NCBI GenBank assembly: GCA_937138495.1
Contig: CAKZPE010000011.1
Location: 1-64,000, forward strand
DNA: 64,000 nt
Source: an uncultured Oceanospirillaceae bacterium
GTDB taxonomy: Bacteria > Pseudomonadota > Gammaproteobacteria > Pseudomonadales > Balneatricaceae
Reading direction: 5' to 3'
In this document: one piece after another, positions 11,717 through 55,444 of the stretch
Layout: the number at the start of each line of letters is the position of its first letter
Position numbering within the stretch: the first letter of the stretch is position 1
Made by a program: the position numbers and the translations under genes
Notes under the pieces: generated by a model
The model's database searches: none
What the model was told of the DNA's origin: nothing
The model's input: the letters and a program-made list of their open reading frames with translations, nothing else

Positions 11717-11971
11717 TTAATACTCAATACAGCCCGATGTTAAACGCTCCCGATACACAACGATAAAAGGAATACCATCAATCACAAGCTCTCTTGTGTT
11801 GTTGACTCGCCCTTGCCGCCCGGCACGGGGATGTTCAGATAATATAAGGTGAACGCTATCGATAATATTGATGACAACATCAATAGCGATCAGGGGATCA
11901 TTGTCTTCGGAAATATATGCTTCAATTTGCTCAAGATCAGTATATGCAAGATCAGTCCATTTGAGCTGCAC
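11717..11971 (-). CDS. RelE/ParE-family toxin
   Basis: VQLKWTDLAYTDLEQIEAYISEDNDPLIAIDVVINIIDSVHLILSEHPRAGRQGRVNNTRELVIDGIPFIVVYRE; proposed GTG start at 11971 inside the antitoxin 3' end. Confidence 0.88.
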   Translation of the reverse strand: MQLKWTDLAYTDLEQIEAYISEDNDPLIAIDVVINIIDSVHLILSEHPRAGRQGRVNNTRELVIDGIPFIVVYRERLTSGCIEY

Positions 11972-12200
11972 GTTTAGACTCCCAACTGGCTTTAACGTCT
12001 GCATGATCGGTAAGACGCCCTTCATCAGCAGCGTGTATACCTTTCTCCACCTCAATAACAAACCGGTCTTCACGGGCAACGTATAACTTAATCGCTTCAG
12101 CCATCAGCCATTCACGGGGCCTGTCCATTGCCTCAGCCATTTGCCCGATACGTTTTAAGGTTTCATCATCCAGTGTTACTGAAGTAGTTTTTAAAGACAC
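11952..12200 (-). CDS. CopG/RHH-family antitoxin
   Basis: MSLKTTSVTLDDETLKRIGQMAEAMDRPREWLMAEAIKLYV ribbon-helix-helix; overlaps toxin start by 20 nt. Confidence 0.88.
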   Translation of the reverse strand: MSLKTTSVTLDDETLKRIGQMAEAMDRPREWLMAEAIKLYVAREDRFVIEVEKGIHAADEGRLTDHADVKASWESKRAAQMD

Positions 12201-13997: not shown

Positions 13998-15677
13998 CTA
14001 ATGTTCTACACAAATAAATTTACATTCGTTAGCTAAATAATTATAAATTAGCTTTAATGACTTCCTCGTTGAAATTCTGTTATCGTAATACCTATTAACA
14101 CTTCTATGAGATCTATATGAACTATAAGTAATATAGATCTTCTCTTTAGCTCGCGATAAAGCAACATATATTGCACAGTTATCTTCAAATTGAGCTTTAT
14201 TATAGTTCCAGAATGCTTGATCCTCTAAACCAACAAAAAAAACAGCTTTATATTCTAAACCTTTACATTTATGGATATTCATTACTTGAACAGTATTTTC
14301 CGTTCTAAATAGTTTAACAGCCTCCTGCAAAGAGTTTGCTTGTGAGCACATTGTCCTAAAATGTACTTCTAAATTTTGGACAACCTTATTTAAATATGTA
14401 TTTGATTTATACTGTTTCCATCTTGATTTAATTTTGCTTTTCCCAAGAAAATCTATGAAGGAATATACATATTGTACGACACTATCAATTTTATCACATA
14501 TCATTAAACGTTCTTTCTGCAAGACTATATAATGAACTAGATCAATATAAAGTTTTTCTTCTCTATCATCAAAACAGTCAATTTTATTTAGAGACAAGTT
14601 AATTTCATGAAGCTTAGTAATAACCTTCGGAGTAGAATCTGTGATTGCTTCTAAGAAAAATGAGAAAAGTTGACCAACCGGCTCATTTAATAAATCTCTC
14701 AAATCAGAAACATCTAGATTGTTTATACCATTAATTGATAATTTTTCACGAACTTTTTCCGTGTAACTTGATGCGTGCTGCTTAGTTAGTATGCAAATAT
14801 CATCTAAACATACGCCATTAGCACTTAATTTAATAATTTCATCAACTATAAAATTTGCTTCGTCAAACTCACCATCAAAAAAGTTAATCGTGCAATTATC
14901 AGTAGACTCTATCGAATCACCCATAAAATCATCTTCATTTATACAACTAAGAAAAGATGACAACCTTCCTTGTATTTCTAAAGAAGCTCTGTGATTTTTT
15001 AACAAATGCATACTTTGAGCAGAAAAATCACTTAAAAACTCATTAAAAACTGTTTTCCTAGCACCTGCAAAAACCATTATACATTGATTAATATCTCCTA
15101 CAGCAATAATCTCAGTAGCTGTATTCTGAAATAATAATATTAATAACTGATATTGTTCAGGTGTAACATCTTGAAACTCATCAACAAAAACATACTCGTA
15201 TGTATGTGAAAACAATTGTCTAATATCATGTCTTGCCTCTAATATGCCAATTGCTAACCCAATGATATCACTCATTAATATTCTAATGTTTCCATGTGCT
15301 TCGCTCTGTCGAAAAACGATATCATAATTATCTACAGGTCTTATCGCTTCTGGTAAAGATGCTTTAAATCTATCTACTATACTTTTACAAAATGCATGAA
15401 AAGTAAAAGAATCAAACCGTTCTGAATCTAATCCACATCTTTTATTTATTCTTTTCTTAATGTTTGACTGAGCTTCAACTTTAGATGTAAGTGAAAGTAT
15501 TCTCTTAGGCCATAAACTTTTTTTGCACATAAACAAGTAACTAGACTTCTGTGCTAACAATTCTGTTTTTCCTGAACCTGCCCCCGCTAAAACAGCTATT
15601 GATCCAGTACTATTAATTACATCCATTAGTTCTTTAGTAGGCTCAATACCATCCGTAGGCTGCCATTCATTCATCAT
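13998..15677 (-). CDS. UvrD/Rep-family helicase, GajB-like
   Basis: Motifs AVLAGAGSGKTELLAQ (I), FTFHAFC (Ib), VFVDEFQD (II), GDINQCIMVFAGA (III), NIHKCKGLEY (V), YVALSRAKEKIYI (VI); ATGA overlap with the upstream TOPRIM gene. Confidence 0.92.
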   Translation of the reverse strand: MMNEWQPTDGIEPTKELMDVINSTGSIAVLAGAGSGKTELLAQKSSYLFMCKKSLWPKRILSLTSKVEAQSNIKKRINKRCGLDSERFDSFTFHAFCKSIVDRFKASLPEAIRPVDNYDIVFRQSEAHGNIRILMSDIIGLAIGILEARHDIRQLFSHTYEYVFVDEFQDVTPEQYQLLILLFQNTATEIIAVGDINQCIMVFAGARKTVFNEFLSDFSAQSMHLLKNHRASLEIQGRLSSFLSCINEDDFMGDSIESTDNCTINFFDGEFDEANFIVDEIIKLSANGVCLDDICILTKQHASSYTEKVREKLSINGINNLDVSDLRDLLNEPVGQLFSFFLEAITDSTPKVITKLHEINLSLNKIDCFDDREEKLYIDLVHYIVLQKERLMICDKIDSVVQYVYSFIDFLGKSKIKSRWKQYKSNTYLNKVVQNLEVHFRTMCSQANSLQEAVKLFRTENTVQVMNIHKCKGLEYKAVFFVGLEDQAFWNYNKAQFEDNCAIYVALSRAKEKIYITYSSYRSHRSVNRYYDNRISTRKSLKLIYNYLANECKFICVEH

Positions 15678-17722
15678 TCTATGACCTCATTAGTAAGTGC
15701 AATTATTACTGCAGCTAGGCGATGAACTTCAGGAGGCAGACGCTCAATGATTTCTTGATCAGTAAGATCATCTTCTATCCTTGAAAAGATGCGAACGTGT
15801 GAAGCTGGCTTACTCTTATTTGATAAAAATCGGTATCTATACCATTTAAATTTATTTAAATATTCTTCTCCAAAGTCAAAACGAATCCCACTATTGCCTT
15901 GCTTCAGAACAGCAGTTTCTAGTTCCTCAACTTTCTTATCACCTTCAACATTTACAGGCCCTCGTTCTCCATAACTAGTATCTACTTCACAGTAAAAATC
16001 AGGAAAACTAGATATCATTGAGTAATCTAAATCTATCGGAGAGGAGAAAAAAACATTACAATTCTCAAGCTCATTAACAATATTAACGACATCCCCATTA
16101 AAGTCACTATAAGACAATTTATATTCAAGAGGATTTTGATCGCTATTCCATTCCGGCATATGATCAGCGATTTCCTGATATAAGTATTTACTTTTTTTAG
16201 CTCCATACTTATTAAGCTGATTGATAATATATTTTAGTCTGCCAAAACCACCACCACTCCGATCTACATCTAAATCAAGAAGTGTAACATATGGTATTTT
16301 TATTGAATCAAGCAACCGCCAAAAATGGTTTACGTGTTTACCCCCAAGAGGCACTATAGATATAGAATATTCATCAATATTAGCGTTATATTTACTAAGT
16401 ATTTTTGGAAGCAAAACTTTTTCGCTATCACCCTCCCCAAGAACTACAAGCTTAGAAAAGTATATTTCTGGGAATGCTTTTACAGCTTCACTTATATACT
16501 TAGCTTGTTCATCTTCATCGGAGGGTAGTTCTAAAGAGGAAATATGAGAACTTTCTGTTTCAGCACACAGTCTAAAATGTCTTATTTGAAGTGGTTCTAT
16601 ACGACTAATCAATGATGATGAATGAGTAGAAACAACTGCTTGACAATAATCATTCCCCCCATACTCTTTTATTAAATTAATTATCCTACCTAAGTAGTGT
16701 GGAGACAAATGATTTTCTGGTTCCTCTAAAGAAATTAAACTAAATATTGGAATTCTTATCTTCCCAGGATCAAAATTAGTTTCAGCTTTGTTCATAATTG
16801 ACTGTCTGGTCTCTTTATCAATGTCAAACAATGCTTTTGTCAAAGAAAAATATACTAATGATTTTTGTCCATCGCTCAGGCTACTTGTTTCAACTTTTCT
16901 TCCTGCTTCATCAGGCATAAACTGGAGTTGTATTAATTTAAGAATCTCATCTATATCTGATAATGGAAAATACAACCCAGCCTCACTTAAATAACGACCT
17001 TTATAAATTTTTGACCAGTTTCTATTTATTGCTTCAGATATTTGAACTAAAGCTGGATTTCCACTTGTTAGATCATTCAGTTTTTGTGCTTTACTTTCAA
17101 ACTTTTCCTGCTCTCCTTCAGACCAACTTATAGCTTTTAACAACCTCCCCAAAATTGCTCTAGAAGAATACTTTAACTGAAGTAAAGGATCTCTATTTGC
17201 AGGAATATATGTTACCTGTATTGAATTACGAACTGCTGCTGTCAAAGGTGTTTTATCATCATCTTCAGGTGTACTCATATCACCATCAATAACCCAAATA
17301 TTTTCTTCTATATCTCCAACTGGATTATATTCATAGCTAATACTAGCTTCTAACCTTACTCTAAACATCACTTCTTTTGAATTAACCCCAGTCACTAATC
17401 CATTTATTAACACAGGAATCGAAGGATTATCATCAGTAAGTTTAATTATAAAAAAAGCATCTATGATGATATTTTTATTGTGAAACCTATCCTCAACAAA
17501 TTTAGTATAAAAATCAGAAGGATTAATTTTTCTCAATCCTATATCTATTGAAAATAACTTATTCAACGCCTCTAAAACCGTACTCTTACCCGTACCATTA
17601 TGCCCTACAAAAGCAGTAATATTTTTATCAAACTTTATTGTCTGCGGAGACTCAGTTGCAATGCTCTTAAAGCCTGAAATAACTAATTTATCTAAAATCA
17701 TTTTTTTCCCTAATGCAGTCAA
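15674..17722 (-). CDS. OLD-family AAA ATPase with TOPRIM nuclease domain, GajA-like
   Basis: Walker A FVGHNGTGKSTVLEALNKLF, SLEEPENHLSP Walker B, VVSTHSSSLI, TOPRIM VVLGEGDSEKVLLPKIL and LLDLDVDRSGGG. Confidence 0.92.
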   Translation of the reverse strand: MTALGKKMILDKLVISGFKSIATESPQTIKFDKNITAFVGHNGTGKSTVLEALNKLFSIDIGLRKINPSDFYTKFVEDRFHNKNIIIDAFFIIKLTDDNPSIPVLINGLVTGVNSKEVMFRVRLEASISYEYNPVGDIEENIWVIDGDMSTPEDDDKTPLTAAVRNSIQVTYIPANRDPLLQLKYSSRAILGRLLKAISWSEGEQEKFESKAQKLNDLTSGNPALVQISEAINRNWSKIYKGRYLSEAGLYFPLSDIDEILKLIQLQFMPDEAGRKVETSSLSDGQKSLVYFSLTKALFDIDKETRQSIMNKAETNFDPGKIRIPIFSLISLEEPENHLSPHYLGRIINLIKEYGGNDYCQAVVSTHSSSLISRIEPLQIRHFRLCAETESSHISSLELPSDEDEQAKYISEAVKAFPEIYFSKLVVLGEGDSEKVLLPKILSKYNANIDEYSISIVPLGGKHVNHFWRLLDSIKIPYVTLLDLDVDRSGGGFGRLKYIINQLNKYGAKKSKYLYQEIADHMPEWNSDQNPLEYKLSYSDFNGDVVNIVNELENCNVFFSSPIDLDYSMISSFPDFYCEVDTSYGERGPVNVEGDKKVEELETAVLKQGNSGIRFDFGEEYLNKFKWYRYRFLSNKSKPASHVRIFSRIEDDLTDQEIIERLPPEVHRLAAVIIALTNEVIE

Positions 17723-19096: not shown

Positions 19097-19795
19097 TTAT
19101 TTCCATATTTCCGGCTTATCAATCGGCTTCTTACCAGTTTTTACTCGATCTGGTAACTGGGCGTTTATAAGCCACTGTTCCAGAACAGAAGTAACAGACC
19201 AAGTACAACGTTCAGATAACTCTTTCGACACACGACGTCCATCACCGTTTTCTTGTATTGGAAAAACAACCCCAATCGGTAAACTTGGATAATCTTCACG
19301 TAAACAGGATAAGACCGGCGACATATCTGAATCATTCGAACATAGAACAACCTGGTCACAATTTCCTTTTACTACGTCTCGGTAAATGCATAAAGAAAGC
19401 TGTACATCTGTTAACTTTTCTTCAAGCTTCCATACCCGGATTTTTTCAAAAGAATGGGGCCTTTTAGGACTAGAAGGACAATAAGGATAGACTGATGAAG
19501 GGCTCGGTAAATGATTTCCTAAAATAATTTCAAAGCTATTTTCTGGATTTGCATATTTCAAAGCTCGTAAAAATGCGCTCTGAGCATGTGCCGAAGCCTC
19601 TCCTTTTGGATGAAAGTTTGCTTTCGTAGGTGCTGTAAATAATTTTACAGTCAATTCTGTCGGCCTAAAGCCAGAATCAACAACCGGAAAAACTTCATTA
19701 AGAAACAAGGAATAGTAATCAATCCATTTGTAACTACTAGCTTTAAGCAGTCCGTAATAAAAGTTAAATCCATCTATATATACGATTGTTTTCAT
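19097..19795 (-). CDS. NYN-domain (PIN-like) predicted ribonuclease
   Basis: MKTIVYIDGFNFYYGLLK...KLTDVQLSLCIYRDVVKGNCDQVVLCSNDSDMSPVL with NYN acidic residues (D in YIDGFN, TDV, SNDSD); start at 19795 after AAAGGG RBS. Confidence 0.85.
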   Translation of the reverse strand: MKTIVYIDGFNFYYGLLKASSYKWIDYYSLFLNEVFPVVDSGFRPTELTVKLFTAPTKANFHPKGEASAHAQSAFLRALKYANPENSFEIILGNHLPSPSSVYPYCPSSPKRPHSFEKIRVWKLEEKLTDVQLSLCIYRDVVKGNCDQVVLCSNDSDMSPVLSCLREDYPSLPIGVVFPIQENGDGRRVSKELSERCTWSVTSVLEQWLINAQLPDRVKTGKKPIDKPEIWK

Positions 19796-19810
19796 TTTCC
19801 CTTTCTCAAG

Positions 19811-19845
19811 CACAAAAAAAGCCGCCATAAGGCAGCTCTTTTCGA
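19811..19845 (-). terminator. Intrinsic terminator between RNA modules and the NYN start codon
   Basis: Reverse strand AAAAGAGCTGCC-TTAT-GGCGGCTTTTTTT. Confidence 0.75.
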
Positions 19846-20041
19846 CCGGTCCTCAGGTAAGTAGACTAACTTAATAGTGTTTACTAGAGGGCAGTAGTAT
19901 CCGGTTTGTATACGTGGGCCTCAGGGTGGTGTTCTAACTTAATAGAGCCAACTAGAGGGAAGTAGTATCCACGTACACTATCGTCAGTAGTCTAGACTAG
20001 TCCGGGTCGATTGGCCTACGCCCTGACCTCTACTGCCGACC
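19846..20041 (-). ncRNA. Candidate structured repeat RNA (two 68-nt-period modules) upstream of NYN gene
   Basis: Two 50-nt cores ATACTACTKCCCTCTAGTnnnCnCTATTAAGTTAGnnnnnnnnCCTGAGG, each enclosed by a different complementary stem; promoter-like hexamers upstream, terminator downstream. Confidence 0.6.
19851..19986. repeat. Tandem 68-bp repeat, two units (19851-19918, 19919-19986)
   Basis: cctcagg...ctaacttaatag...actagaggg.agtagtatcc at exact 68-bp spacing. Confidence 0.9.
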
Positions 20042-20047
20042 ATATTA

Positions 20048-20077
20048 GTATATAAAAGCACTACTCTTGGTAGTAAA
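20048..20077 (-). promoter_or_regulatory. Putative sigma70 promoter for the repeat RNA / NYN transcript
   Basis: Reverse strand TTTACT-18 nt-TATACT. Confidence 0.45.
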
Positions 20078-20289
20078 TTGTATCTAGCTATAGAGTTCAG
20101 CAACCGTAATTAATAATGACTAATAACCATTACTAATCAATACAATAAAGCTATGTAGTCTTAGACATTAGCCTGCGTTGTATAAGACCATCCTCTATGT
20201 ACTGCATAAGATCATTACGATCCATCCCTCTACTACGGAAGTACCCCATCAAATCAATGTATAAGCCACTTCGTTTGCAACAGCACGCG

Positions 20290-34439: not shown

Positions 34440-34625
34440 GCTCGCAGCTCCCCAGGGTTTCTCGGTCGATTGGTTACGTCCCTTGAGCCGATAAACACAC
34501 TTTAGGAAGCTTCTCGATTAACGGGTGTGCATGTCCGCATGACGGAAAGCCTAATGTTATTCAGAGGCTACCACCTTGAACCTTCGGGTTCAGGGCCACA
34601 ACCAACGCTATTGCCCTGGGGAGTC
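34440..34625 (+). ncRNA. ssrS: 6S RNA
   Basis: ctccccaggg...cccttgagccgata...accttgaaccttcgggttcagggccacaac...ccctggggag; located between zapA and ygfA as usual. Confidence 0.93.
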
Positions 34626-54948: not shown

Positions 54949-55305
54949 TTACTTGCGGATTGGCTTACGTGGGCCTTTACGGGTACGCGCGTTTGTCTTA
55001 GTGCGCTGACCACGTAGAGGCAGGCTGCGACGATGACGCAGACCACGAAAACAGCCCAGATCCATCAAGCGTTTGATGTTCATGGATACTTCACGACGAA
55101 GATCGCCTTCAACCGTTAACTTGGCGATTTCGCCACGTACGTTGTCTAGCTGTTCTTCTGAAAGCTCTGCAATCTTGGTGGATTCTTGAATACCACAAGC
55201 TGAACAGATGCTTTTCGCTGTAGTGCGGCCAATTCCGAAGATGTAAGTCAATGAAATTACCGCATGCTTATTGTCAGGAATATTGACGCCTGCTATACGG
55301 GCCAT
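54949..55305 (-). CDS. rpsM: 30S ribosomal protein S13
   Basis: [26 protein letters not shown]. Confidence 0.98.
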
Positions 55306-55444
55306 TCAATTTACTCCAACTTTATTAGCATGTTACCTGTCATATCAGACAAGCACTGCAAATTCTTCTATTAATGGAAGGCGCAGGATGTTACACCTTG
55401 ATTAAAAATAAATCAAGCCCCTTACCTTCCACCCCAGACCAGGA

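Follow-up and report, generated by a model that had tools for sequence, protein, structure and literature searches.

Layout of the locus

The minus strand of the window (the whole 64-kb stretch of DNA analysed here) carries a putative promoter, two tandem structured RNA units, an intrinsic terminator and a gene for a NYN-domain protein (Table 1). The units contain a 55-nt repeat in two copies (19848-19902 and 19916-19970) that are 78% identical and spaced 68 nt from start to start. The 240-nt leader folds better than its dinucleotide shuffles (z = -3.5; 1 of 200 shuffles as good), bearing out the tandem modules of about 68-nt period and folding potential described in the first-pass annotation. 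Folded alone, unit 1 reaches -22.8 kcal/mol and unit 2 -14.5 kcal/mol, and each adopts the class I hairpin defined below, enclosed by an extra outer stem. The outer stems of the distal (ACGUGG/CCACGU) and proximal (ACCGG/CCGGU) units differ by compensatory changes, as do the inner stems UCU/AGA and ACU/AGU, so that the two copies compensate each other. Unlike in other class I loci, about 70 nt precede the first unit; the RNA model search of the window gave no covariance-model match to the 5' part of the predicted transcript. A second copy of the RNA was not found in the source genome, which contains two ordinary NYN genes besides the one described here.

Table 1. Features of the RNA-NYN locus in the window.
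Feature	Positions	Strand	Basis or remarks
Putative -35 TTTACT, weak	20077-20072	-	Read from sequence; 4/6 to consensus
Putative -10 TATACT	20052-20047	-	Read from sequence
5' part of predicted transcript (~55 nt)	20041-19987	-	GUCGGCAGUAG...CUACUGACG hairpin; not a unit copy
RNA unit 1 (distal)	19978-19908	-	Outer stem ACGUGG/CCACGU; inner stems CCUC/GAGG, UCU/AGA
RNA unit 1 octaloop AUUAAGUU	19943-19936	-	Fold of unit 1
RNA unit 2 (proximal)	19905-19845	-	Outer stem ACCGG/CCGGU; inner stems CCUC/GAGG, AGUA/UACU, ACU/AGU
RNA unit 2 octaloop AUUAAGUU	19875-19868	-	Fold of unit 2
Intrinsic terminator AGCUGCC-UUAU-GGCGGCU-U7	19837-19814	-	Between RNA and NYN gene
Shine-Dalgarno-like AAAGGG	19804-19799	-	Read from sequence; 3 nt to ATG
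NYN (PIN-like) ribonuclease-family gene, 232 aa, HEC-09 family	19795-19097	-	Pfam, PADLOC, alignments, AlphaFold

The terminator proposed earlier is present and folds as a hairpin; by RNA folding it sits inside a 14-bp hairpin. The NYN reading frame starting at 19795 was likewise upheld, with a Pfam NYN match (E 1.1e-5) and an ATG that fits the homologs, and the suggested ribosome-binding site AAAGGG is there as a Shine-Dalgarno-like site, only 3 nt before that ATG. The promoter claim stood in part: both boxes exist, but the spacer is 19 nt rather than the 18 nt given, and the -35 box is weak. A scan for consensus promoters with spacers of 16-18 nt did not report TTTACT/TATACT; nor did it report the terminator that folding shows.

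The NYN protein

Over its whole length (residues 2-232), the protein matches the PADLOC profile HEC-09 (E 2e-21), the sole PADLOC model matched by 55 of 55 aligned family members; no Pfam domain other than NYN matched it. HEC-09 stands for a 'Hma-embedded candidate', from a group of putative single-gene defence families, some of whose members have been tested (PMC12988326). The literature searched yielded no experimental report of HEC-09 anti-phage activity. Residues D8, N11, E126, D130, D155 and D157 are invariant in the alignment of 55 relatives (30-47% identity), and this conserved acidic site is consistent with an active PIN-like nuclease. The AlphaFold model (pLDDT 95.3) has its best fold match in the PDB with the uncharacterised Vibrio protein VPA0982 (2qip; E 7.8e-6), the only match below 1e-3, and a PDB search by sequence gave no match to the protein.

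The CRISPR-associated NYN protein of Bacteroides fragilis shares the domain and is, according to the abstract of its description, a Mn2+-dependent single-stranded RNase; it trims crRNA in a type III CRISPR locus, and the abstract names no upstream RNA partner (PMC11346440). HEC-09-type NYN proteins are named 6-hydroxy-3-succinoylpyridine monooxygenase HspA/NicB in four plasmid records (H85, H100, H108 and H110). The HspA name comes from Pseudomonas putida S16, where the protein was reported to be a metabolic enzyme, a role that has been doubted (PMC6122326). On these plasmid genes the label is probably misleading, and the proteins are probably NYN nucleases.

Distribution and neighbouring genes

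Relatives occur in 414 plasmid records, many of them 4-7 kb; at least 506 of the 584 pattern-matching stretches listed from the genome collection encode relatives, and viral contigs gave 112. An alignment query was needed to find them, a single-protein scan of genome contigs having given nothing. Record titles include Pseudomonadota, Planctomycetota, Ignavibacteriota, Acidobacteriota, Latescibacterota and Bacteroidetes, and many records are MAGs. One record labelled Bacillus subtilis SK7B5 (JAHREJ010000002.1) carries a module RNA like that of Xanthomonadaceae loci and is possibly a contaminated assembly.

No conserved partner gene stands beside the module among the family loci examined, and the lack of a constant neighbour suggests that the module is self-contained. 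The minus strand of the window also encodes a Gabija pair (GajA 15674-17722, GajB 13998-15677; PADLOC E < 1e-219), located some 1.4 kb downstream of NYN; noted at first as Gabija-like, the pair is complete. Two overlapping small ORFs at 11717-12200 (minus strand) resemble, in the ORF list, a RelE/ParE-type toxin-antitoxin pair. Elsewhere the window contains a 6S RNA (34447-34625, plus strand) and an alpha-operon ribosome binding site (55273-55360, minus strand).

A covarying RNA family

Covariance models with the terminator (R1) and without it (R2) were built from 23 RNAs of other bacteria, the window being excluded. R1 matches below 40 bits in a survey of 369 genomes mostly look like terminator background, and R2 was for that reason built without the terminator. 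With E-values that are rough for both models, R1 matched unit 2 together with its terminator at 38.7 bits (E 9e-9) and unit 1 at 18.3 bits (E 0.003), and R2 matched unit 2 at 22.0 bits (E 3e-4) and unit 1 at 15.6 bits (E 0.024). Further R1 matches at 647-700 and 19776-19841 are terminator-only, and R2, searched to E 10 across the 64 kb, found nothing besides these units. Since a model holding no window sequence finds both units, they are, as judged by these matches, beyond chance, and they belong to the class I RNA. No Rfam family matched the RNA site, either in the window or in 20 homologous loci.

The class I RNA consists, in order, of ACnACUC, a CCC stem, an outer stem, an inner stem, the octaloop AUUNRRUU, the returning stems to GGG, then GAAAA and the terminator. 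RNAalifold found this structure unguided, 13 of its 21 pairs showing compensatory changes. When 23 sequences were aligned plainly with MAFFT, 39 double-change cells were counted, versus 12.6 in shuffles (0/500). For 63 distinct model-aligned RNAs, in an alignment that leans to the covariance model as the MAFFT alignment does not, the covariation score is 0.518 versus 0.189 shuffled and 0.05-0.14 when the registers are slid by 1-3 columns, with 148 compensatory cells versus 47 in shuffles (0/500) and 11 of 12 pairs compensated. The extended hairpin accounts for the covariation. A pseudoknot, part of the type III layout to which the first-pass annotation likened the locus, has no support from covariation: the candidate pairing of ACU in the 5' end with AGU in the loop changes without compensation and is broken in several sequences.

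The distal clade of the family has a different RNA, a hairpin of the form CCCC...UUUCGA...GGGG with the terminator GCGGGGCC...GGCCCUUGC, in which 14 of 17 pairs carry compensatory changes; this class lies upstream of NYN genes in several phyla (for example at loci L103, L106, L108, L111 and L143). A third upstream hairpin, such as CAUCGCUCUACUUUCUUGUAGAG, followed by a terminator, precedes NYN in six viral contigs (L136, L141, L147, L154, L157 and L159) and at L115; these contigs are Bacteroidetes-like. On the tree of 55 proteins, a rough classification of the RNAs tracks the protein clades, with 12 label changes versus 27.0 in shuffles (0/200).

The number of units varies between loci. Most homologs have one unit that directly abuts the terminator; the E. 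coli plasmid type (L021) has two to three in tandem, and the window two. The repetition that had been put forward thus exists in the window, in L021 and in L033, but it is not the conserved feature of the family. The small enterobacterial plasmids L021, L034, L275 and L276 have two to three tandem units, two sharing the GCGAUUAAGUUACGC hairpin, and their RNA region is better conserved than the nuclease gene. On a 4.6-kb E. coli plasmid (L033; CP057030.1, 577-704), an unrelated 33-nt hairpin (CCUGUGGCGUGCCGCAGG plus an A-rich linker) is present four times in tandem. A terminator and then a divergent NYN gene follow this array, an arrangement strikingly like a ToxI array.

Linkage of the RNA to the NYN gene

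R2 gave 66 matches in 98 sources (550 kb), and 66 of 66 lie immediately upstream of a HEC-09-family NYN gene. All three RNA matches above 40 bits in 369 genomes of the class (G240, G171 and G284) are directly upstream of NYN, and 2.9 million viral contigs scanned for exact patterns yielded six genuine RNAs, each with NYN directly downstream; the remaining pattern matches there are due to chance. An RNA without an adjoining NYN gene was seen neither in the 550 kb of the 98 sources nor as an orphan in the viral contigs. Across 5,426 E. coli genomes, every plasmid record with the RNA also has the gene and vice versa, in 15 of 15 records. The search of NYN homologs for a conserved upstream RNA, suggested in the first pass, was thus successful, with covariation; homologs lacking any such RNA would have spoken against the claim, and the RNA proved to be family-wide.

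Upstream regions of the relatives nearly always present, in this order, promoter-like sequence, a structured RNA of 40-60 nt, a terminator and the NYN start. A fixed rule placed an intrinsic terminator in the 100 nt before the NYN start at 146 of 180 family loci, which are partly redundant, and before 47 of 1200 other ORFs of the same loci. Only 2 of 30 ordinary NYN genes have one under the same rule, so that the terminator is not a trait of NYN genes generally. A -10-like box stands 0-12 nt, mostly 6-7 nt, before the ACnACUC motif in 39 of 52 class I loci versus 13 of 103 control windows. From this placement one would expect an RNA of about 75-80 nt that begins at the motif and stops at the terminator, and a short separate transcript is likely in class I loci. 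As for antiterminator pairing, RNAs paired with their own terminator arms (-6.08/-7.79 kcal/mol) no more strongly than with swapped ones (-6.25/-7.87 kcal/mol).

Comparison of E. coli plasmids gives 97-98% identity for the RNA stretch and 87-92% for the NYN gene, whose third codon positions differ by 21-32%; evolution is far slower in the RNA than in the gene. The more distant plasmid pair shows 69 synonymous versus 12 non-synonymous codon changes, and the NYN gene is under purifying selection. Three loci retain an intact RNA before a NYN gene broken by stops or a frameshift (L012, RNA 85.6 bits; L053, 45 bits; L009), whereas the one close relative without the RNA (L039) has a gene that lacks both its first residues and an in-frame start, an asymmetry that would be expected of a toxin, in cases that are few and may include assembly errors. 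With the same RNA preceding relatives in hundreds of bacteria and plasmids, RNA and enzyme seem to be two parts of one module.

A proposed RNA-nuclease module

Computation establishes an RNA family with its fold and its link to one NYN subfamily, the placement of promoter and terminator, an intact catalytic site and purifying selection on the gene. We favour, with a probability of about 0.6, a two-part module in which the structured RNA holds a toxin-like NYN nuclease inactive. The transcription, binding, inhibition, toxicity and trigger that we infer would run as follows. From one promoter, a short structured RNA would be made in abundance; its length would be about 75-80 nt in most relatives and about 230 nt here, where there are two units. 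Most transcripts would stop at the intrinsic terminator and rare read-through would yield NYN mRNA, the leaky terminator setting the ratio of RNA to nuclease. NYN would bind the folded unit, with its octaloop AUUNRRUU and single-stranded 5' end ACnACUC, and stay inactive, the RNA made in excess sequestering the ribonuclease. Should the RNA supply fail, for example because the plasmid is lost or a phage shuts off transcription, the nuclease, being longer-lived, would be freed and would cut RNA, leading to plasmid maintenance, abortive infection or both.

The chief rival is cis-acting autoregulation: a leader bound or cut by NYN would tune terminator read-through or the stability of its own mRNA, and NYN would serve a housekeeping or mobile-element RNA task and be no toxin. 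RNase E, which acts on its 5' UTR, is a parallel. RNA, terminator and gene are always contiguous and the RNA was never seen alone, as expected of a leader acting in cis; the one unit abutting the terminator in most relatives is placed as a cis-acting attenuator would be, which counts against the module. The metabolic role reported, and doubted, for HspA of P. putida S16 counts against a toxin (PMC6122326). Autoregulation by the leader is, however, hard to square, at least in its simplest form, with RNA and terminator arms that keep no complementarity (own pairs no stronger than swapped ones) or with the frequency of the loci on very small plasmids, and there is no conserved leader ORF: a leader peptide was rejected, an ATG being present in only 4 of 23 RNA cores. 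Several loci, moreover, have two to four units, and the tandem arrangement in the window, on E. coli plasmids and in CP057030 (4 x 33 nt) suggests that the RNA is more than a leader. On this evidence we think autoregulation in cis unlikely, while still giving it serious weight.

The RNA might instead activate or direct NYN, acting as its cofactor, guide or sensor, for example as a phage-origin decoy substrate. Any ribonucleoprotein effector would be compatible with a fixed RNA next to a nuclease of a defence family (HEC-09), but the exposed octaloop and 5' end have conserved sequences, which leaves no variable guide segment, and the precedents with the same layout are inhibitory; such a role seems quite improbable. 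A further alternative is an ordinary 5' UTR in which the repeat arose by chance and the terminator is unrelated; short two-copy repeats are often due to chance, and the promoter is weak. The independent model matches, the covariation, the family-wide conservation and the terminator enrichment refute it, and its probability is negligible.

Relation to known systems

The preferred reading, an RNA that keeps a toxin-like NYN nuclease inactive, has precedents. The type III systems ToxIN, CptIN and TenpIN (PMC5086642) are likewise operons of antitoxin RNA repeats, a leaky terminator and an endoribonuclease gene, and they occur on plasmids, phages and chromosomes. The order of RNA, Rho-independent terminator and nuclease gene is the same in the window and in the family, probably within a single transcript. 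The functional tie of RNA to NYN in a type III-like layout, as first proposed, is strongly supported, the layout being kept throughout the family and in different phyla, with covariation in the RNA; the pseudoknot and repetition as a conserved trait are not. Those systems have the ToxN/AbiQ fold and pseudoknotted repeats, whereas the present family has a NYN/PIN-like protein and an extended octaloop hairpin, often as a single unit. Because the fold is not that of ToxN and no pseudoknot is supported, we do not file the locus in the ToxIN superfamily; if the inference of an RNA antitoxin holds, the module works like a type III system.

In Clostridioides difficile, the RNA RCd22 binds and neutralises AbiF, and most transcription ends at a terminator before the gene (PMC12373285). 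AbiF/AbiD with RCd22 resembles our locus in having one promoter, a short ncRNA with repeated motifs, a Rho-independent terminator and a protein gene, on mobile elements. It differs in its Abi_2/HEPN protein, its unrelated RNA motif and its experimentally demonstrated inhibition, in place of which we have a PIN-like NYN protein and a presumed inhibition. AvcID, as summarised in its description (PMC10511110), is a type III system in which an RNA antitoxin is paired with a toxin outside the ToxN fold, a deoxycytidylate deaminase rather than a nuclease. With AbiF and AvcID, RNA antitoxins are known for other folds, so the kind of system is known and the variant is new. The closest entry by protein is PADLOC HEC-09, the same family (55/55 members), modelled as a lone protein without the upstream RNA. 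In the literature searched, which was mostly open-access, we found no paper on the RNA and none linking NYN to type III toxin-antitoxin systems; most subscription journals and preprints lie outside that scope, and an earlier description is possible.

Implications

On balance we lean toward a general form of this proposal, in which HEC-09 NYN proteins, whether encoded on small plasmids, on prophage-like contigs or in the chromosomes of several phyla, would each be paired with a cognate structured RNA antitoxin that diverged with the protein clade, forming a new and very widespread type III-like toxin-antitoxin or anti-phage family of a fold unrelated to ToxN. The finding supplies a second component for a defence candidate catalogued as a single gene and adds a strongly covarying RNA family that is absent from Rfam. 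The matching clades of RNA and NYN protein offer a ready system for the study of RNA-protein specificity, and the natural 4-5 kb E. coli plasmids allow direct testing. If the proposal is true, RNA-antitoxin systems would come to include a third nuclease fold, in addition to ToxN and HEPN.
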